Shown in pieces: positions 5,204-31,738 of a DNA stretch of 31,738 bases. The stretch's first letter is position 1. Each line of letters opens with the position of its first letter. Position numbers and translations under genes: made by a program. This stretch comes from a virus. The notes beneath the pieces were generated by a model. That model searched no databases and was not told where the DNA came from. It saw only the letters and a list, made by a program, of their open reading frames with translations. Location of the stretch: IMG/VR virus record IMGVR_UViG_3300043409_000605, positions 1 to 31,738 of that record; one strand, 5' to 3'.

Positions 5204-5286
5204 TGGTAGGCGGGGCCGGACTCGAACCGGCAAGCCGAAGCGAAAGATTTTAAGTCTTTTGTGTTTACCATTTTCACCACCCGCCC
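5204..5286 (-). tRNA. tRNA-Leu (anticodon UAA), CCA encoded
   Basis: On the minus strand the 7-base acceptor GGGCGGG (5280-5286) pairs with CCCGCCT (one G-U), and A-CCA is encoded at the 3' end (5204-5206). The D arm has the tRNA-Leu look (GTG...GGTAAACAC). The anticodon stem AAAGA/TCTTT encloses the loop CTTAAAA, giving anticodon UAA, which reads UUA. The variable arm is long, as class II tRNAs require, and the T arm is GCCGG-TTCGAGT-CCGGC. It lies within the leftward early block and is probably co-transcribed. It may supplement the host for UUA, frequent in the AT-rich phage genes. Confidence 0.93.
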
Positions 5287-7202: not shown

Positions 7203-7378
7203 TCCTTCCCCCAGGGGCATTTCAGTGCAGTACAGTGGATTTCGGTGTATCGTTTATCGCCGGTTCCAAACGGGTCTTTTTCTACACGACCGTATTCACA
7301 ATCTGAACACTTGGGAACCTTGCATCCTCCGCTACCAGGACGGTGCGGGAACTTGTAAACATTGCATGTGCAATTCAT
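7199..7378 (-). CDS. Cys-rich 59-residue protein, probable zinc binder
   Basis: First gene of the leftward early block, ATG 7378 with AGGAGA a few bases upstream and ATGA overlap with the next gene. It has seven cysteines: C3 and C5, C19, C25 and C28 (C-x-x-C), C49 and C54. The spacing suggests one or two zinc knuckles. As the first product from the leftward promoter it could be an early regulator or host-takeover protein; that is speculation from position. Confidence 0.75.
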   Translation of the reverse strand: MNCTCNVYKFPHRPGSGGCKVPKCSDCEYGRVEKDPFGTGDKRYTEIHCTALKCPWGKE

Positions 7379-7425
7379 CTTGTCTCCTGTTTTTCATCCG
7401 GTCTTCAGGTTTCGACCGTGAGATA

Positions 7426-7454
7426 ATGTTAAACAGTTAAAACAGTCATGTCAA
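7426..7454 (-). promoter_or_regulatory. Leftward early promoter (sigma70-type)
   Basis: On the minus strand a perfect -35 TTGACA (7449-7454) is followed after 17 bases by TAACAT (7426-7431; four of six to TATAAT). It lies 47 bases upstream of the first leftward gene start. The sequence between and around the boxes carries repeated AACAGT units, a possible operator. No repressor gene was recognised. Confidence 0.7.
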
Positions 7455-7504
7455 CAACTATTTTCGCTTAATAATCAACGAACTATAAAAAAGTAGAAAA
7501 ATAC

Positions 7505-7533
7505 TTGCAAATAATTATTGGAAAGTAGAGAAT
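7505..7533 (+). promoter_or_regulatory. Possible rightward promoter for the structured RNA
   Basis: TTGCAA (7505-7510), a 17-base AT-rich spacer, then GAGAAT (7528-7533), each four of six to consensus. The expected start near 7540 falls at the first hairpin of the structured element. Moderate evidence only. Confidence 0.4.
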
Positions 7534-7540
7534 CGTTTTG

Positions 7541-7678
7541 CCTGTGAATACAGGTCGTTCTGTGGCGGAGCGTGAGTACAGTTAAACCCTTTACGCAGGG
7601 GTTTTGGTCAGGAAAGCGACTTTACTGTACTTGCGCTTCTCCTAGCCACGACCTGAACCCCGCCGTAAAGGGTTTTTT
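7541..7678 (+). ncRNA. Candidate structured non-coding RNA with pseudoknot and T-tract end
   Basis: The plus strand starts with a small hairpin, CCTGT-GAAT-ACAGG (7541-7554). A long arm follows: 12 perfect pairs between 7584-7595 and 7664-7675, then six pairs (GGGGTT 7598-7603 with AACCCC 7656-7661), four pairs (CAGG 7609-7612 with CCTG 7652-7655) and five pairs (AAGCG 7614-7618 with CGCTT 7634-7638). The apical loop contains ACTGTACT (7624-7631), exactly complementary to AGTACAGT (7575-7582) just 5' of the arm, so an eight-pair pseudoknot is possible. Six T (7673-7678) end the arm like an intrinsic terminator on the plus strand. No reading frame explains it. It could be a phage small RNA, a regulated terminator or a replication structure. 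I do not recognise a known RNA family. Confidence 0.6.
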
Positions 7679-7682
7679 CATT

Positions 7683-7886
7683 GGCCGCACGAAAAGCCAG
7701 TGCGTAAGTAAGAAGGCAACAGTCGGGGTAGAGGCCGCAGGATAAGTAGCTGCGGAGCCAGGGAAGACACCTGCCATACCCGAACCAACTGGTCAAGGCC
7801 AGCGTTCAGAGAGTGGTTACTTGATACGACACCTTGCATATCCGAAGTATGGATGAGTAACCGAAACGCGAGTTTCGTGGTTGGTC
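7683..7886 (+). ncRNA. Second structured stretch, multi-branched fold
   Basis: Nested pairings cover most of this stretch. CGCAC/GTGCG (7686-7690, 7700-7704). GGGTA/TACCC (7726-7730, 7777-7781) encloses CCGCAG/CTGCGG (7735-7740, 7750-7755) and a weaker AGG/CCT hairpin. ACCAA/TTGGT (7784-7788, 7881-7885) encloses three arms: CTGGT/GCCAG with loop CAAG (7789-7802), GGTTACT/AGTAACC (7815-7821, 7856-7862) and GAAAC/GTTTC with a GCGA tetraloop (7863-7876). This is a four-way junction with a GNRA-type loop. It is not a tRNA, as there is no T arm or CCA. It may be the 3' half of one larger RNA, a 5' leader of the rightward operon, or an origin structure. Confidence 0.45.
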
Positions 7887-7900
7887 TATTAAAAAAAAGA

Positions 7901-7930
7901 TTGACATTGTTAAAAAAGAAGGTTTACCCT
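7901..7930 (+). promoter_or_regulatory. Rightward early promoter (sigma70-type)
   Basis: A perfect -35 TTGACA (7901-7906), preceded by a run of eight A, then an 18-base spacer and TACCCT (7925-7930; three of six). Transcription would start just upstream of the ribosome site (GGAGG) of the gene at 7954 and serve the rightward early block. The poor -10 box suggests regulation or an activator. Confidence 0.5.
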
Positions 7931-7953
7931 GAAGACTCTTAAACGGAGGACAC

Positions 7954-8253
7954 ATGGAAGACTTTGATACGTTCTGGAAGGCTTACCCGCGAAAAGTAGC
8001 GAAGGGTGACGCAAGGAAGGCGTGGATTGCGACAGAAAAGATCCGCCCGTCTTTATCTAACATTCTAGAAGCAATTGAAAACCAAAAAAATACTCAGCAA
8101 TGGATGGAGAATGAGGGAATGTTTATTCCTTACCCTGCTACCTGGCTTCGAGGTGAGCGATGGGACGATGAAGTAAAAATTGATGTGCCTAAAGCACTAA
8201 GTAAAACGATGGGTGCTATTGTTGCCCTTGAACAGTGGAAGCGAGGATCATGA
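7954..8253 (+). CDS. Stand-alone O-like replication protein domain
   Basis: A 99-residue protein with GGAGG five to six bases before ATG 7954. It opens MEDFDTFWKAYPRKVAKGDARKAW and later has PYPATWLRGERWDDE. These two blocks are the signature of the C-terminal part of phage replication initiators and DnaT/O-like proteins, where the domain contacts a helicase loader or DNA. Here it stands alone, with no N-terminal DNA-binding domain in frame upstream. It is the first gene of the rightward early block and overlaps the methyltransferase start by ATGA. It may recruit host helicase to an origin in the adjacent structured region; that is inference. Confidence 0.8.
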   Translation: MEDFDTFWKAYPRKVAKGDARKAWIATEKIRPSLSNILEAIENQKNTQQWMENEGMFIPYPATWLRGERWDDEVKIDVPKALSKTMGAIVALEQWKRGS

Positions 8254-8256
8254 ATG
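8241..8256 (+). promoter_or_regulatory. Shared ribosome site feeding two overlapping starts
   Basis: GCGAGGA is followed by ATG 8250 (methyltransferase) and ATG 8254 (nested protein), packed as ATGAATGAG. The TGA of the upstream gene (8251-8253) sits between them. One ribosome site could start both frames. Confidence 0.6.
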
Positions 8257-9320
8257 AGCTGGCTCTTTTCGCGGGCGCTGGTGGAGGCATACTCGGTGGA
8301 AAGCTGCTTGGATGGAGAACCGTCTGCGCCGTTGAGTGGGAACCCTATCCCGCAAGCGTATTGTGCGCCCGACAGAATGACGAAATTCTCCCGCCTTTCC
8401 CGATTTGGGATGACGTTCAAACCTTTGACGGAAAGCCGTGGCGAGGAATTGTTGATGTCGTATCTGGCGGGTTTCCATGCCAAGACATCAGCAGCGCAGG
8501 AAAGGGGGCAGGAATTATCGGCAGCAGATCAGGACTCTGGTCTGAAATGGCAAGGATTATTGGCGAAGTACAACCACGCTACGCGTTCGTGGAAAACAGC
8601 CCAATTCTCACTTCTCGCGGACTTGGAACAGTGCTTGGAGATTTGGCCGCGCTGGGGTTTGATGCGAAATGGGGTGTCATATCAGCAGCAGACGTTGGTG
8701 CGCCACACCTCCGAGAGAGAATCTGGATTGTTGCTACCAACACCGGATACCAGCAACCGAGACAACAAGAAAATGGTTTTCGACAAGAGCGCGACGAGTC
8801 AATCCGGCCGAGCATTGGCTACTTTTGCGAGAACCTTTCCGACACCAACAGTGATGGATTCAACTCTATCCTGCAAAGGCAAAGCGGGCGCAAAAGGAAA
8901 ACACAGTGTGCAACTGTCTCACCTAGCAGCCAGTGGGGCTTTGATGACAGAAAATCATTGGGAAACTCAGGACAAATTGAGGGAAATGGGGATGCTGTCT
9001 GCGGCAGAGAAACGACAGAGATTTCCGACAGTAACAGCGACAGCCAATCAACTGGCGCCGTCAATGCAAAGTCGTTACAAAAACCCAATATGGCCCACAC
9101 CGACAGCACACAACGCGAAGGAAACAAATGCGCCAAGCGAGAGCAACCTGCACATGCCAACATTGGCAGCGCAGGCTGGTGGGCATCTGAACCCAACGTG
9201 GGTCGAGTGGCTAATGGGGTGGCCGCTAGGGTGGACAGACTTAAAGCCATTGGTAATGGACAAGTCCCATTGTGTGCAGCAACCGCATGGAGAATCTTAA
9301 ATGAACTGGCTACAAGCTGA
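8250..9320 (+). CDS. DNA cytosine-C5 methyltransferase (Dcm-type)
   Basis: A 356-residue enzyme that would transfer methyl from S-adenosylmethionine to C5 of cytosine in DNA. Motifs appear in family order: I FAGAGGG (7-13), IV with the catalytic Cys77 in GGFPCQD, VI with E-N-S (115-117, usually E-N-V), VIII GAPHLRERIWI (150-160), and IX/X near the C-terminus (RVDRLKAIGNGQVP). The target-recognition region between VIII and IX is long, Ser/Asn/Gln-rich and low in structure. The whole of the nested 8254-9300 frame lies inside this gene, which may explain that composition. No restriction enzyme lies next to it, so it probably protects phage DNA. The start overlaps the upstream stop by ATGA; the last 20 bases overlap the next gene. 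Confidence 0.93.
   Translation: MNELALFAGAGGGILGGKLLGWRTVCAVEWEPYPASVLCARQNDEILPPFPIWDDVQTFDGKPWRGIVDVVSGGFPCQDISSAGKGAGIIGSRSGLWSEMARIIGEVQPRYAFVENSPILTSRGLGTVLGDLAALGFDAKWGVISAADVGAPHLRERIWIVATNTGYQQPRQQENGFRQERDESIRPSIGYFCENLSDTNSDGFNSILQRQSGRKRKTQCATVSPSSQWGFDDRKSLGNSGQIEGNGDAVCGRETTEISDSNSDSQSTGAVNAKSLQKPNMAHTDSTQREGNKCAKREQPAHANIGSAGWWASEPNVGRVANGVAARVDRLKAIGNGQVPLCAATAWRILNELATS
8254..9300 (+). CDS. Overprinted protein inside the methyltransferase gene
   Basis: A 348-residue frame on the same strand, entirely inside the methyltransferase gene and shifted by one base. It starts four bases later (MSWLFSRALVEAYS) and ends with TAA directly before the next ATG at 9301. It reads like a real protein: an N-terminal block with FSRLSRFGMTFKPLTE and a Trp-rich middle, then three spaced repeats of the form (L/F/W)PTPT (LLPTPDTSN, TFPTPTVMD, IWPTPTAHN), and a C-terminal block WVEWLMGWPLGWTDLKPL. 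I recall this C-terminal block and the PTP repeats from uncharacterised phage proteins found beside or overlapping dcm genes. No catalytic motif is seen. It may assist or modulate the methyltransferase; that is speculation. Confidence 0.75.
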   Translation: MSWLFSRALVEAYSVESCLDGEPSAPLSGNPIPQAYCAPDRMTKFSRLSRFGMTFKPLTESRGEELLMSYLAGFHAKTSAAQERGQELSAADQDSGLKWQGLLAKYNHATRSWKTAQFSLLADLEQCLEIWPRWGLMRNGVSYQQQTLVRHTSERESGLLLPTPDTSNRDNKKMVFDKSATSQSGRALATFARTFPTPTVMDSTLSCKGKAGAKGKHSVQLSHLAASGALMTENHWETQDKLREMGMLSAAEKRQRFPTVTATANQLAPSMQSRYKNPIWPTPTAHNAKETNAPSESNLHMPTLAAQAGGHLNPTWVEWLMGWPLGWTDLKPLVMDKSHCVQQPHGES

Positions 9321-29825: not shown

Positions 29826-31738
29826 ATGGCAGAACAAGTTTATAGAGTACAAGATCCTCAAGGGAATGTTAGGGAAATTATTGGCCCTACTGGAGCTTCT
29901 GATGAAGAAATTATTTCAAATGCACGGGAATTATTTTCTTCTACAGAGGGCGGTGCCGTAACCGGCATTCAGAAACCACAAGCTCCTCAGCGTGAGGTTC
30001 CAATTGAAAAGTTTGGTGTTGATGTTGGTGGGGCAGGTGTTCTTGGCGCTGTTGGTGGAGTTGCTGCACCATATTTATTGAAAGGCGCTGGCGAGATATT
30101 GTCATCAATTCCATTTCCAGGAGCGCGTGTTACTGGCATGGGATTGAAATATGCAGGCGAGGCCGCCGGAAATGTACCCGCTAAAGCAAGAGCAAGTACT
30201 GGATTAATTGGCGGATTAATATCAGAGACTGCCGGTAAATTTGCAGAAGGATATGGCGCTGGCCCTGTAGCCGCCGAAGCAGTTAGATTTATTGCTGGCG
30301 GAGTTACCCCAGAGTTTGCAAGGCTTGCATATGTTGCATTAGGAAGAAGTGCAAGATTGCTTGTTGGCGCACAAGGACTTTCTGGTGGAATTCGCGCAGA
30401 TCAAATTGTTCCTGCTATTAATGCAGCGGCTTTAGAGCTTGAACAAAAAACCGGAAAGCCGTTAACAGATGAACAAAGGGCATATTTCTCATCTCTTTCT
30501 GCCGAGCTTACTGGAAGTAAAAAGCCCGGCGAAGCACTAGAGCAAATAGCTCCCGTTTTAACTAAAGGCGCTGAGAAAATAAAGGCTGATGCAAAATTAA
30601 GATCAGGCGATTTATATACGGAATCATTTAAGGCGTTAGATGGCGCAAACGAAGCTGCAAAAGCAGAGATAAATGATGCTATTAGTACAGCAAAAGGTGG
30701 CGTTAAAGGAAGATCTGATGCAATTTCATATTTGACATCATTAAAAAATAACATTGTTGATAAATCAAAAGAAGCATTAACTTCCATTGGTAATCCAAGA
30801 GATATTTCTGAAATTGGCTCTGATCTTCAAAATATATCTGTGGCAAGACAAACCGCAGAACGAACTGCCGCCGCAAATAAATACAATGAAACAAAAGTTC
30901 TTGTAGATAAATCTGTATCGGATAAAGAATCTGCTGGAGTATTTGTTAATTCTTTGCCTGAATATAAATCGTTGGTAAGTGATTTAAAGAAAAACACAAG
31001 GCCAGGGGTTAGGTCTAGTGATGTTTCTAATTCATTTCAACGGATTTTAGATAACATTAAAATTCCTACGGACAAAGATGGAAAGCCAACAGAAAAAGGT
31101 TCTTATGTATCGTTTCAGGCAATAGATGATGCTAGGCGTTTGTTAGGAGAAGTATTTAGAGGAAATCCGCCAGATGGTTATGCCGCTATAGACGCTGCTA
31201 CTGCTAGGGAATATTACGGAAAGCTCTCTAATATTCAAAAAATGTATGCAGGTGAAAAACAATCTGAGTTGCTCGATAACTATGCCTTATCAAAAGAGGG
31301 CTTAGAAGTTTTCAATTCACAATACGGCAGAAAGATTGCCGGTAGAGATCCTGGTGATTTAGATCAACTTAAATCTGATCCTGCATCTATACCATCATAT
31401 TTTTTTAAAAGTCCAAAGTCTTTTAATTCGTTAATTTCTTTGGTTGGTGAAAAAGAGTTTGCTTTATCTGCGGCCAAAGATTATGTGGCAAACGAAATTA
31501 GCTCTAAAACTACATCAAGACAAATAAATCTTTGGTTAACACAAAACAGAGATTTTATGTCTGCGGTTCCAGAAGTTAGAAACTCTGTAGTTCAATATCG
31601 TAATTCATTGGAAAAAACAGAAAAGACTCTTCTTAATCTGGATAACGGTATTAATACTTTGGCTCGACAGCAAACCGCATTGCCCGGTCAATTAGAAAGG
31701 GTTGCGGAACGTCGAGCAACAAAACTTGCTGCTGGCGG
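29826..31738 (+). CDS. Large internal virion protein, N-terminal part (continues at 1-614)
   Basis: Starts ATG 29826, 12 bases after the previous stop, with AGGAA upstream. The frame is open to the window end and continues at base 1 (see the 127-bp repeat), giving 799 residues in total. It starts MAEQVYRVQDPQGNVREIIGP, a short N-terminal segment common in large podovirus virion proteins. A hydrophobic, Gly/Ala-rich region follows at about 60-180 (GGAGVLGAVGGVAAPYLLKG and GLIGGLISETAGKFAEG), likely to insert into membranes. Helical coiled-coil regions follow (AKGGVKGRSDAISYLTSLKN, DDARRLLGEVF). This is the expected layout of a phage protein that helps DNA cross the host envelope. No lytic transglycosylase motif was noticed. 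Confidence 0.82.
   Translation, partial: MAEQVYRVQDPQGNVREIIGPTGASDEEIISNARELFSSTEGGAVTGIQKPQAPQREVPIEKFGVDVGGAGVLGAVGGVAAPYLLKGAGEILSSIPFPGARVTGMGLKYAGEAAGNVPAKARASTGLIGGLISETAGKFAEGYGAGPVAAEAVRFIAGGVTPEFARLAYVALGRSARLLVGAQGLSGGIRADQIVPAINAAALELEQKTGKPLTDEQRAYFSSLSAELTGSKKPGEALEQIAPVLTKGAEKIKADAKLRSGDLYTESFKALDGANEAAKAEINDAISTAKGGVKGRSDAISYLTSLKNNIVDKSKEALTSIGNPRDISEIGSDLQNISVARQTAERTAAANKYNETKVLVDKSVSDKESAGVFVNSLPEYKSLVSDLKKNTRPGVRSSDVSNSFQRILDNIKIPTDKDGKPTEKGSYVSFQAIDDARRLLGEVFRGNPPDGYAAIDAATAREYYGKLSNIQKMYAGEKQSELLDNYALSKEGLEVFNSQYGRKIAGRDPGDLDQLKSDPASIPSYFFKSPKSFNSLISLVGEKEFALSAAKDYVANEISSKTTSRQINLWLTQNRDFMSAVPEVRNSVVQYRNSLEKTEKTLLNLDNGINTLARQQTALPGQLERVAERRATKLAAG

Follow-up and report, generated by a model that had tools for sequence, protein, structure and literature searches.

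The locus and its gene neighbourhood

The window, meaning the whole stretch of DNA analysed here, is an IMG/VR virus record of 31,738 nucleotides (IMGVR_UViG_3300043409_000605). Its two ends, 1-127 and 31612-31738, form an identical terminal repeat of 127 bp, so that the map is probably circular and complete, at about 31.6 kb. The window carries phage genes for terminase, portal and capsid, a leftward recombination operon whose ERF and YqaJ proteins were identified by Pfam, and a rightward early unit. No integrase and no repressor appeared among the window proteins scanned, a scan that was not exhaustive. Between the leftward ERF/YqaJ operon and the rightward early unit lies a region without any plausible gene, as a previous sequence-only reading had stated, and it contains the 138-nt element, 7541-7678, that we named RNA1. 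The features around it are the following.

7426..7454, − strand: divergent promoter of the leftward ERF/YqaJ operon, TTGACA-17-TAACAT (sequence scan)
7505..7533, + strand: sigma70-like promoter, TTGCAA (7505-7510), 17 nt, GAGAAT (7528-7533), 8/12 matches
7541..7678, + strand: RNA1
7683..7886, + strand: RNA2 (type A), a second structured RNA with paired 5' and 3' ends, not in Rfam (11 relatives)
7901..7929, + strand: probable separate promoter of the downstream replication gene, TTGACA-17-TTACCC (sequence; stretch repeated in relatives)
7954..8253, + strand: 99-aa gene resembling the C-terminal domain of O-type replication initiation proteins (phrog_270, 2e-22)

The 99-aa protein covers only positions 177-253 of the 383 positions of the phrog_270 profile, so that the origin- or DNA-binding half of O-like initiators seems to be absent. 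Next come two overlapping long frames on the + strand, 8235-9320 and 8254-9300, one of which is by sequence a C5 cytosine methyltransferase and the other a match to phrog_1008; both are also open in one relative (L087, 5282-6055 and 5301-6035), and dual coding is possible. On the leftward side, the early region holds a tRNA-Leu (anticodon taa) at 5204-5286 on the − strand, and the leader of the leftward operon contains GGTCTTCAGGTTTCGACC (7399-7416), which is almost constant in all close relatives while the adjoining sequence is variable and which is able to fold into a small GGUC/GACC hairpin.

RNA1 belongs to a family found in viral metagenomes

The first relatives were obtained via neighbouring proteins, followed by a pattern search fixing GGGTTTYGGTY and CCRCGACC. 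With patterns taken from the conserved parts, at least 80 copies of RNA1, with at least 50 distinct sequences, were found in IMG/VR viral contigs, all relatives being metagenomic contigs. Since the first pattern itself fixed the two motifs, it matters that two unrelated patterns, based on the 5' hairpin, recovered the same family together with further copies. The idea that GGGUUU/AAACCC and CCRCGACC are biologically invariant was rejected as partly an artefact of the search pattern: three relatives found with an unrelated pattern (L424, L425 and L429) carry GGGCUU/AAGCCC in place of GGGUUU/AAACCC, both sides having changed in step.

Rfam 15 returned nothing for RNA1 or for the RNA2 of the window at gathering or permissive thresholds, in agreement with the earlier statement that RNA1 is not a known family. 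The same search gave a single tRNA on the whole window, and RF02932 and a tRNA only on 12 relatives. A permuted tmRNA (RF04321) was discarded as noise (11.1 bits against a cut-off of 47, E = 5), and ARAGORN found no tmRNA. By blastn with three consensus sequences, no RNA1 was detected in 50,697 annotated phage records, where the window region gave nothing beyond chance. The RNA1 model (R1) had no hit in 300 Burkholderiales genomes, a set that may not include the host, and none in 100 other phage loci with related ERF or TerL genes; a pattern scan of genome contigs gave chance matches only, and R1 one match at E = 0.1 (100 loci).

Two pseudoknots and their stems covary

The 138 nt of RNA1 fold with -56.3 kcal/mol (z = -4.2), and none of 200 shuffled sequences was as stable. 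The parts of the RNA are listed below.

7541..7554, + strand: P1, 5' hairpin CCUGU-GAAU-ACAGG (sequence; RNAalifold consensus with changes on both sides)
7556..7572, + strand: P2 hairpin, 7556-7560/7568-7572, its loop holding the PK2 5' strand (compensatory stems)
7562..7649, + strand: PK2, 7562-7566 (GUGGC)/7645-7649 (GCCAC), which crosses the terminator arm (covariation; absent from the sequence-only reading)
7573..7633, + strand: PK1, 7575-7582/7624-7631, extendable to 7573-7582/7624-7633 (covariation)
7584..7675, + strand: P3, terminator arm, 7584-7595/7664-7675 and 7598-7609/7650-7661 (inverted repeat, covariation)
7610..7643, + strand: P4, upper hairpin 7610-7618/7634-7643, its apical loop holding the PK1 3' strand (own versus swapped partners)
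7673..7678, + strand: T run, where RNA1 presumably ends by intrinsic termination (sequence)

The eight-base complementarity on which the sequence-only reading had built its pseudoknot is correct, 7575-7582 (AGTACAGT) and 7624-7631 (ACTGTACT) being exact complements, and the long arm, the 5' hairpin at 7541-7554 and the T run at 7673-7678 that it had described are all present. AGTACAGT occurs once more in the window, at 7229-7236, as chance alone would predict. Both strands of PK1 are replaced together in relatives, with 42 different 5' strands among 45 unique sequences. The mean uninterrupted run is 8.8 pairs between own partners and 4.8 between partners swapped among relatives, a run of 6.5 is reached by 43 of 45 own pairings but only 10% of swapped ones, and the duplex energies are -18.0 and -9.2 kcal/mol, respectively. 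Compensatory changes had been proposed as the test of both the arm and the 7575-7582/7624-7631 helix, and they were found: on a plain alignment (A1), all six pairs of the PK1 main block are changed on both sides, cells changed on both sides number 163 over the whole structure versus 59 in shuffles, and the observed covariation score was reached in 0 of 500 shuffles.

PK2 joins the P2 loop to 7645-7649 and pairs in all 44 unique sequences, with variants that change in step (GUGGC/GCCAC, GUAGAAG/CUUCUAC, GUGAUGGG/UCCAUCAC and GUAGCGGA/UCCGCUAC); its mean run is 6.4 for own versus 5.3 for swapped partners. The P2 stem occurs as CGCG/CGCG, CGCC/GGCG, GUCCG/CGGAC or GUCAG/CUGAC, with 87.6% of cells paired, and for P4, 87.5% of own but 45% of swapped pairings give a stem of 4.5 weighted pairs or more. 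The two strands of the P3 arm (7584-7609/7650-7675) form an inverted repeat of 26 nt with 85% complementarity. Its lower part, P3a, has both sides changed in 7 of 10 pairs and its upper part varies in pairs in L424, L425 and L429, while the outermost pairing of the long hairpin, GGUCG/CGACC, is not conserved in relatives. Across RNA1, G-U pairs outnumber A-C pairs by 121 to 8, an excess indicating that the + strand RNA is the functional, selected strand. Taken together, these data leave hardly any doubt that RNA1 is a real structured RNA.

The two sets of helices are arranged as crossing inverted repeats, I1 for PK1/PK2 and I2 for P3: PK1/PK2 connect the 5' part with the middle of the RNA, and P3 connects the apical part with the 3' tail. 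Computed separately for 49 sequences, both folds are stable, with means of about -48 kcal/mol for PK1/PK2 and about -58 kcal/mol for P3. The P3 strands AACCC, GGGUUU, AAACCC and GGGUU can also pair locally, in a 5' hairpin in 49 of 49 sequences and a 3' hairpin in 46 of 49; such local pairing would explain the near-constancy of these strands, part of which was fixed by the search pattern. On geometric grounds, we estimate that about 2 nt link PK1 to P3 and that P3 makes about two helical turns, so that with a fully stretched arm of 27 bp PK1 would be out of reach, and either the arm bends back or the pairings alternate. The loop-to-flank pseudoknot proposed earlier is thus upheld by complementarity and covariation, but not in its simplest form, in which it would coexist with the fully stretched arm, since the estimated linker is too short.

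Promoter and terminator of RNA1

The sequence-only reading had placed a candidate promoter at the 5' end, and the comparison bears this out: at least 8 of 12 promoter positions match at this place in 41 of 49 relatives, versus 5% at random positions and 12% in shuffled upstream sequence. The predicted start of RNA1 is at about 7540/7541. Four relatives (L086-L089) have their whole upstream DNA replaced and keep the start point of RNA1. The block that stands there in place of the usual promoter region contains many copies of ACCCTTGAAGCC(A).

At the other end, nearly all of the 49 aligned copies have 5-9 T behind the arm, one of them reading TTTT-C-TTTTT. A consensus terminator scanner did not call the RNA1 terminator, whose arm has a larger loop than the scanner's rule allows. 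From this form, transcription would end at the RNA1 T run.

A second structured RNA and accessory genes follow RNA1

The earlier description of RNA1 as a structured RNA that has a promoter, a pseudoknot and the form of a terminator holds, but RNA1 does not stand alone, for RNA2 lies directly behind it (7683-7886). Among the 62 predicted pairs of type A RNA2, 23 are changed on both sides, none of 500 shuffles matches its covariation score, and G-U pairs exceed A-C pairs by 78 to 3. Its model, R2, had no hit in 250 Burkholderiales genomes. Other relatives have unrelated structured RNA types in this place; homology of the RNA2 types with each other is not supported, as the type A model gives no full-length cross-match. 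Two relatives have the Betaproteobacteria-1 RNA (RF02932) directly behind RNA1 (L278, 5811-5928; L274, 1683-1803). RF02932, which presumably goes back to a survey of 224 candidates, thus takes the position of RNA2, and it matches neither RNA1 nor the RNA2 of the window. It also occurs without RNA1 in Burkholderiales genomes (e.g. L412), the loci noted besides L278 and L274 being L412-L415, L418 and L420 (3501-3572). In Acidovorax phage AP1, DNA similar to it stands between the primase gene and a small gene.

RNA2 is often followed by an accessory gene encoding an HNH, GIY-YIG or MUG113/T5orf172 nuclease-like protein, Mom, or an N6/N4 methylase (examples are L176, L084, L200, L243 and L234), and a gene lies directly behind RNA1 in L200, L427, L428, L430 and L431. 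Judging from these genes, the locus behind RNA1-RNA2 is an accessory-gene hot spot. No promoter was seen between the RNA1 terminator and the RNA2 or gene behind it; the window has its next one after RNA2, at 7901..7929.

RNA1 alleles appear to move between genomes

Between the window and one relative (L091), RNA1 differs at 1 of 109 positions outside PK1 and at 12 of 25 within it, the flanking genes having a divergence of 0.32 at four-fold sites. In comparisons with the window, the plain rate of change in PK1 nevertheless gave no support for positive selection: PK1 values of 0.17-0.48 are near those of four-fold sites (0.32-0.38). As the rate is not clearly above neutral, we argue from the uneven way in which PK1 is exchanged. 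L183 and L244, with 95% flank identity, differ at 8 of 23 PK1 columns and 2 of 118 columns in the rest of RNA1, PK1 having been replaced here as a unit. At the other extreme, L185/L206, L199/L243 and L219/L237 share PK1 at flank identities of 74-81%, with 0 of 23 differences in the first two pairs. L245 and L266 have 1 difference in 4030 positions outside the locus, versus 30 of 150 in RNA1 and 36 of 442 adjoining it; for L225 and L245 the figures are 20 of 1278 elsewhere versus 30 of 154 in RNA1.

Near-identical phages thus seem to swap RNA1 alleles while diverged ones can share one. Discrete alleles moving between genomes would be expected if the element served in recognition, as determinants of immunity or incompatibility do, and exchange together with the keeping of PK1 across diverged genomes fits a recognition tag rather than pure structural drift. 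The main technical alternative is that part of the swapping could be assembly chimerism, since the contigs come from similar metagenomes.

RNA1 as a putative attenuator with self-specific feedback

Our preferred reading, to which we give a probability of about 0.4, is that RNA1 works both as an attenuator close to the promoter and as a small RNA: PK1/PK2 would compete with the terminator arm, and the RNA would exert self-specific feedback in trans. RNA1 would be a + strand transcript from its own promoter, heading the rightward early unit and ending at the intrinsic terminator, so that most transcripts would stop at 7678 and yield the small RNA. When PK1/PK2 form, polymerase would continue into RNA2 and into the cassette gene of those loci that have one; when they are blocked, P3 would terminate transcription. 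PK1/PK2 should favour read-through because they are transcribed first and lie across P3: while polymerase still holds the 3' end, their early formation should hinder the winding of P3 and hence termination. Whatever occupies the PK1 5' strand would tip the balance towards the terminator. A finished RNA1 of the same allele could do so by pairing its P4 loop, which carries the PK1 3' strand, with the PK1 5' strand in newly made transcripts of that phage. Early expression would then be under a feedback specific for self, which would act against co-infecting kin as well.

Competition between the pseudoknots and the terminator arm fits the anatomy of the RNA. Against the mechanism, P3 is on average 10 kcal/mol more stable in the folding model, so the outcome would depend on kinetics. 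Besides, RNA2 is followed by its own promoter in the window, and read-through would not be needed for the 99-aa gene. Targets for PK1 in trans are not enriched elsewhere in the same contigs (7.04 versus 7.09). The lack of RNA1 in the 300 Burkholderiales genomes and of integrase or repressor among the proteins scanned makes lysogenic immunity in the style of P4 unlikely, and the control would therefore have to matter in lytic infection. Unlikely as it is on present data, RNA1 may even be an RNA-based self/non-self tag of phages without lysogeny. Discrete, exchangeable PK1 alleles would then let a finished RNA1 silence the early transcripts of those co-infecting phages alone that share its allele, and the constant scaffold would be a docking module before the interchangeable RNA2 and nuclease or DNA-modification genes.

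The strongest rival to the attenuator is a stable small RNA that stands alone as a compact double pseudoknot, with all helices formed together, and binds a host protein such as polymerase, a nuclease or a defence protein. PK1 would be a drifting clamp, and swapping an escape from recognition by the host. Promoter and terminator do bound an RNA of about 138 nt, the P2 and P4 stems can coexist with PK1/PK2 in their loops, and the DNA-modification enzymes behind it (Mom, N6/N4 methylase) may point to a counter-defence hot spot. However, PK1 is identical in some strongly diverged phages, unlike what drift would give, RNA2 and genes follow with no promoter between, and the estimated 2-nt linker makes simultaneous helices tight. 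We regard this reading as possible, though on the doubtful side.

Replication offers another explanation, which we hold improbable. ColE1 RNA I/RNA II is a structured RNA of a replication region with interchangeable recognition loops, and RNA1-RNA2 could likewise be a primer of the RNA II kind that stays on the origin DNA, its PK1 alleles defining incompatibility groups. The locus lies between the ERF/YqaJ recombination genes and replication genes, the adjoining protein matches the C-terminal part of O-like initiators only, an A-rich stretch (7890-7920) follows RNA2, and the allele swapping resembles incompatibility. On the other hand, the T run within RNA1 would stop a primer early, and the genes behind the RNA differ among relatives. 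The GC skew of the window shows no clean origin, Rfam gives no ColE1-type match, and, unlike in ColE1, no antisense promoter reading across RNA1 was seen within 7380-7960, nor has RNA1 homology to that system.

Equally poor are the prospects of RNA1 as an antitermination RNA acting in cis, which would bind the elongating polymerase and make it ignore later terminators. Its model would be put of phage HK022, a structured RNA at the head of both early operons without a terminator of its own. Like put, RNA1 is a compact structured RNA heading an early operon as the first element of the transcript, it precedes varied downstream genes, and it has this early location in many phages. Unlike put, RNA1 has, in the copies examined, an arm like a terminator at its own end, and no copy was seen at the leftward operon, whereas put occurs at both early promoters.

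It is very improbable that PK1 pairs between molecules to form rings or dimers as in the phi29 packaging RNA: the exposed loop is complementary to an upstream single strand, the strands are replaced in pairs and the origin is a phage, but the location is early or replicative instead of packaging, Rfam gives no match to pRNA or ornate oligomeric RNA, and intramolecular pairing is available. A plain strong terminator or a DNA palindrome (cruciform, origin) with incidental loop complementarity would agree with the long inverted repeats in the DNA and the final T run but is refuted by the paired changes in PK1/PK2 and the G-U to A-C ratio, the promoter positioned at the 5' end also speaking against it.

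Comparison with phage RNAs acting on their own transcripts

The attenuator reading has a partial precedent in IsrK of the Salmonella prophage Gifsy-1, a terminated short RNA beside an antirepressor gene, which works in trans on the read-through form of its own transcript and activates the translation of a small ORF (PMC4825925). RNA1 resembles it, as far as sequence can tell, in having a phage promoter, a short RNA at an intrinsic terminator and predicted partial read-through, and so in heading a phage transcript as a terminated short RNA. It differs in its hypervariable paired tag, none being described for IsrK in the part of PMC4825925 used here, and has no sequence or Rfam match to IsrK: the C4 antisense RNA/IsrK model (RF01695) gave no match in the window or in 7440-7960 even at E up to 10. 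According to PMC4825925, P4 CI is a leader RNA, cut out of the transcript and working in lysogeny, which controls early termination of its own replication operon by antisense pairing upstream and downstream. Unlike the P4 CI described there, RNA1 has its own terminator and no homology to it, and no lysogeny gene occurs among the proteins scanned.

What RNA1 may mean for phage biology

RNA1 represents an undescribed structured RNA family in the early control regions of many uncultured aquatic phages, and its pseudoknot is demonstrated through compensatory change. The loci also give the orphan Rfam family RF02932 a genomic context, and the combination of a constant RNA1, an interchangeable structured RNA and often a nuclease or DNA-modification gene marks a place for finding further phage RNAs. 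If the alleles are true tags, they would amount to RNA-based kin discrimination in phages seemingly without lysogeny, and to a control of superinfection that could be tested with a 138-nt element.
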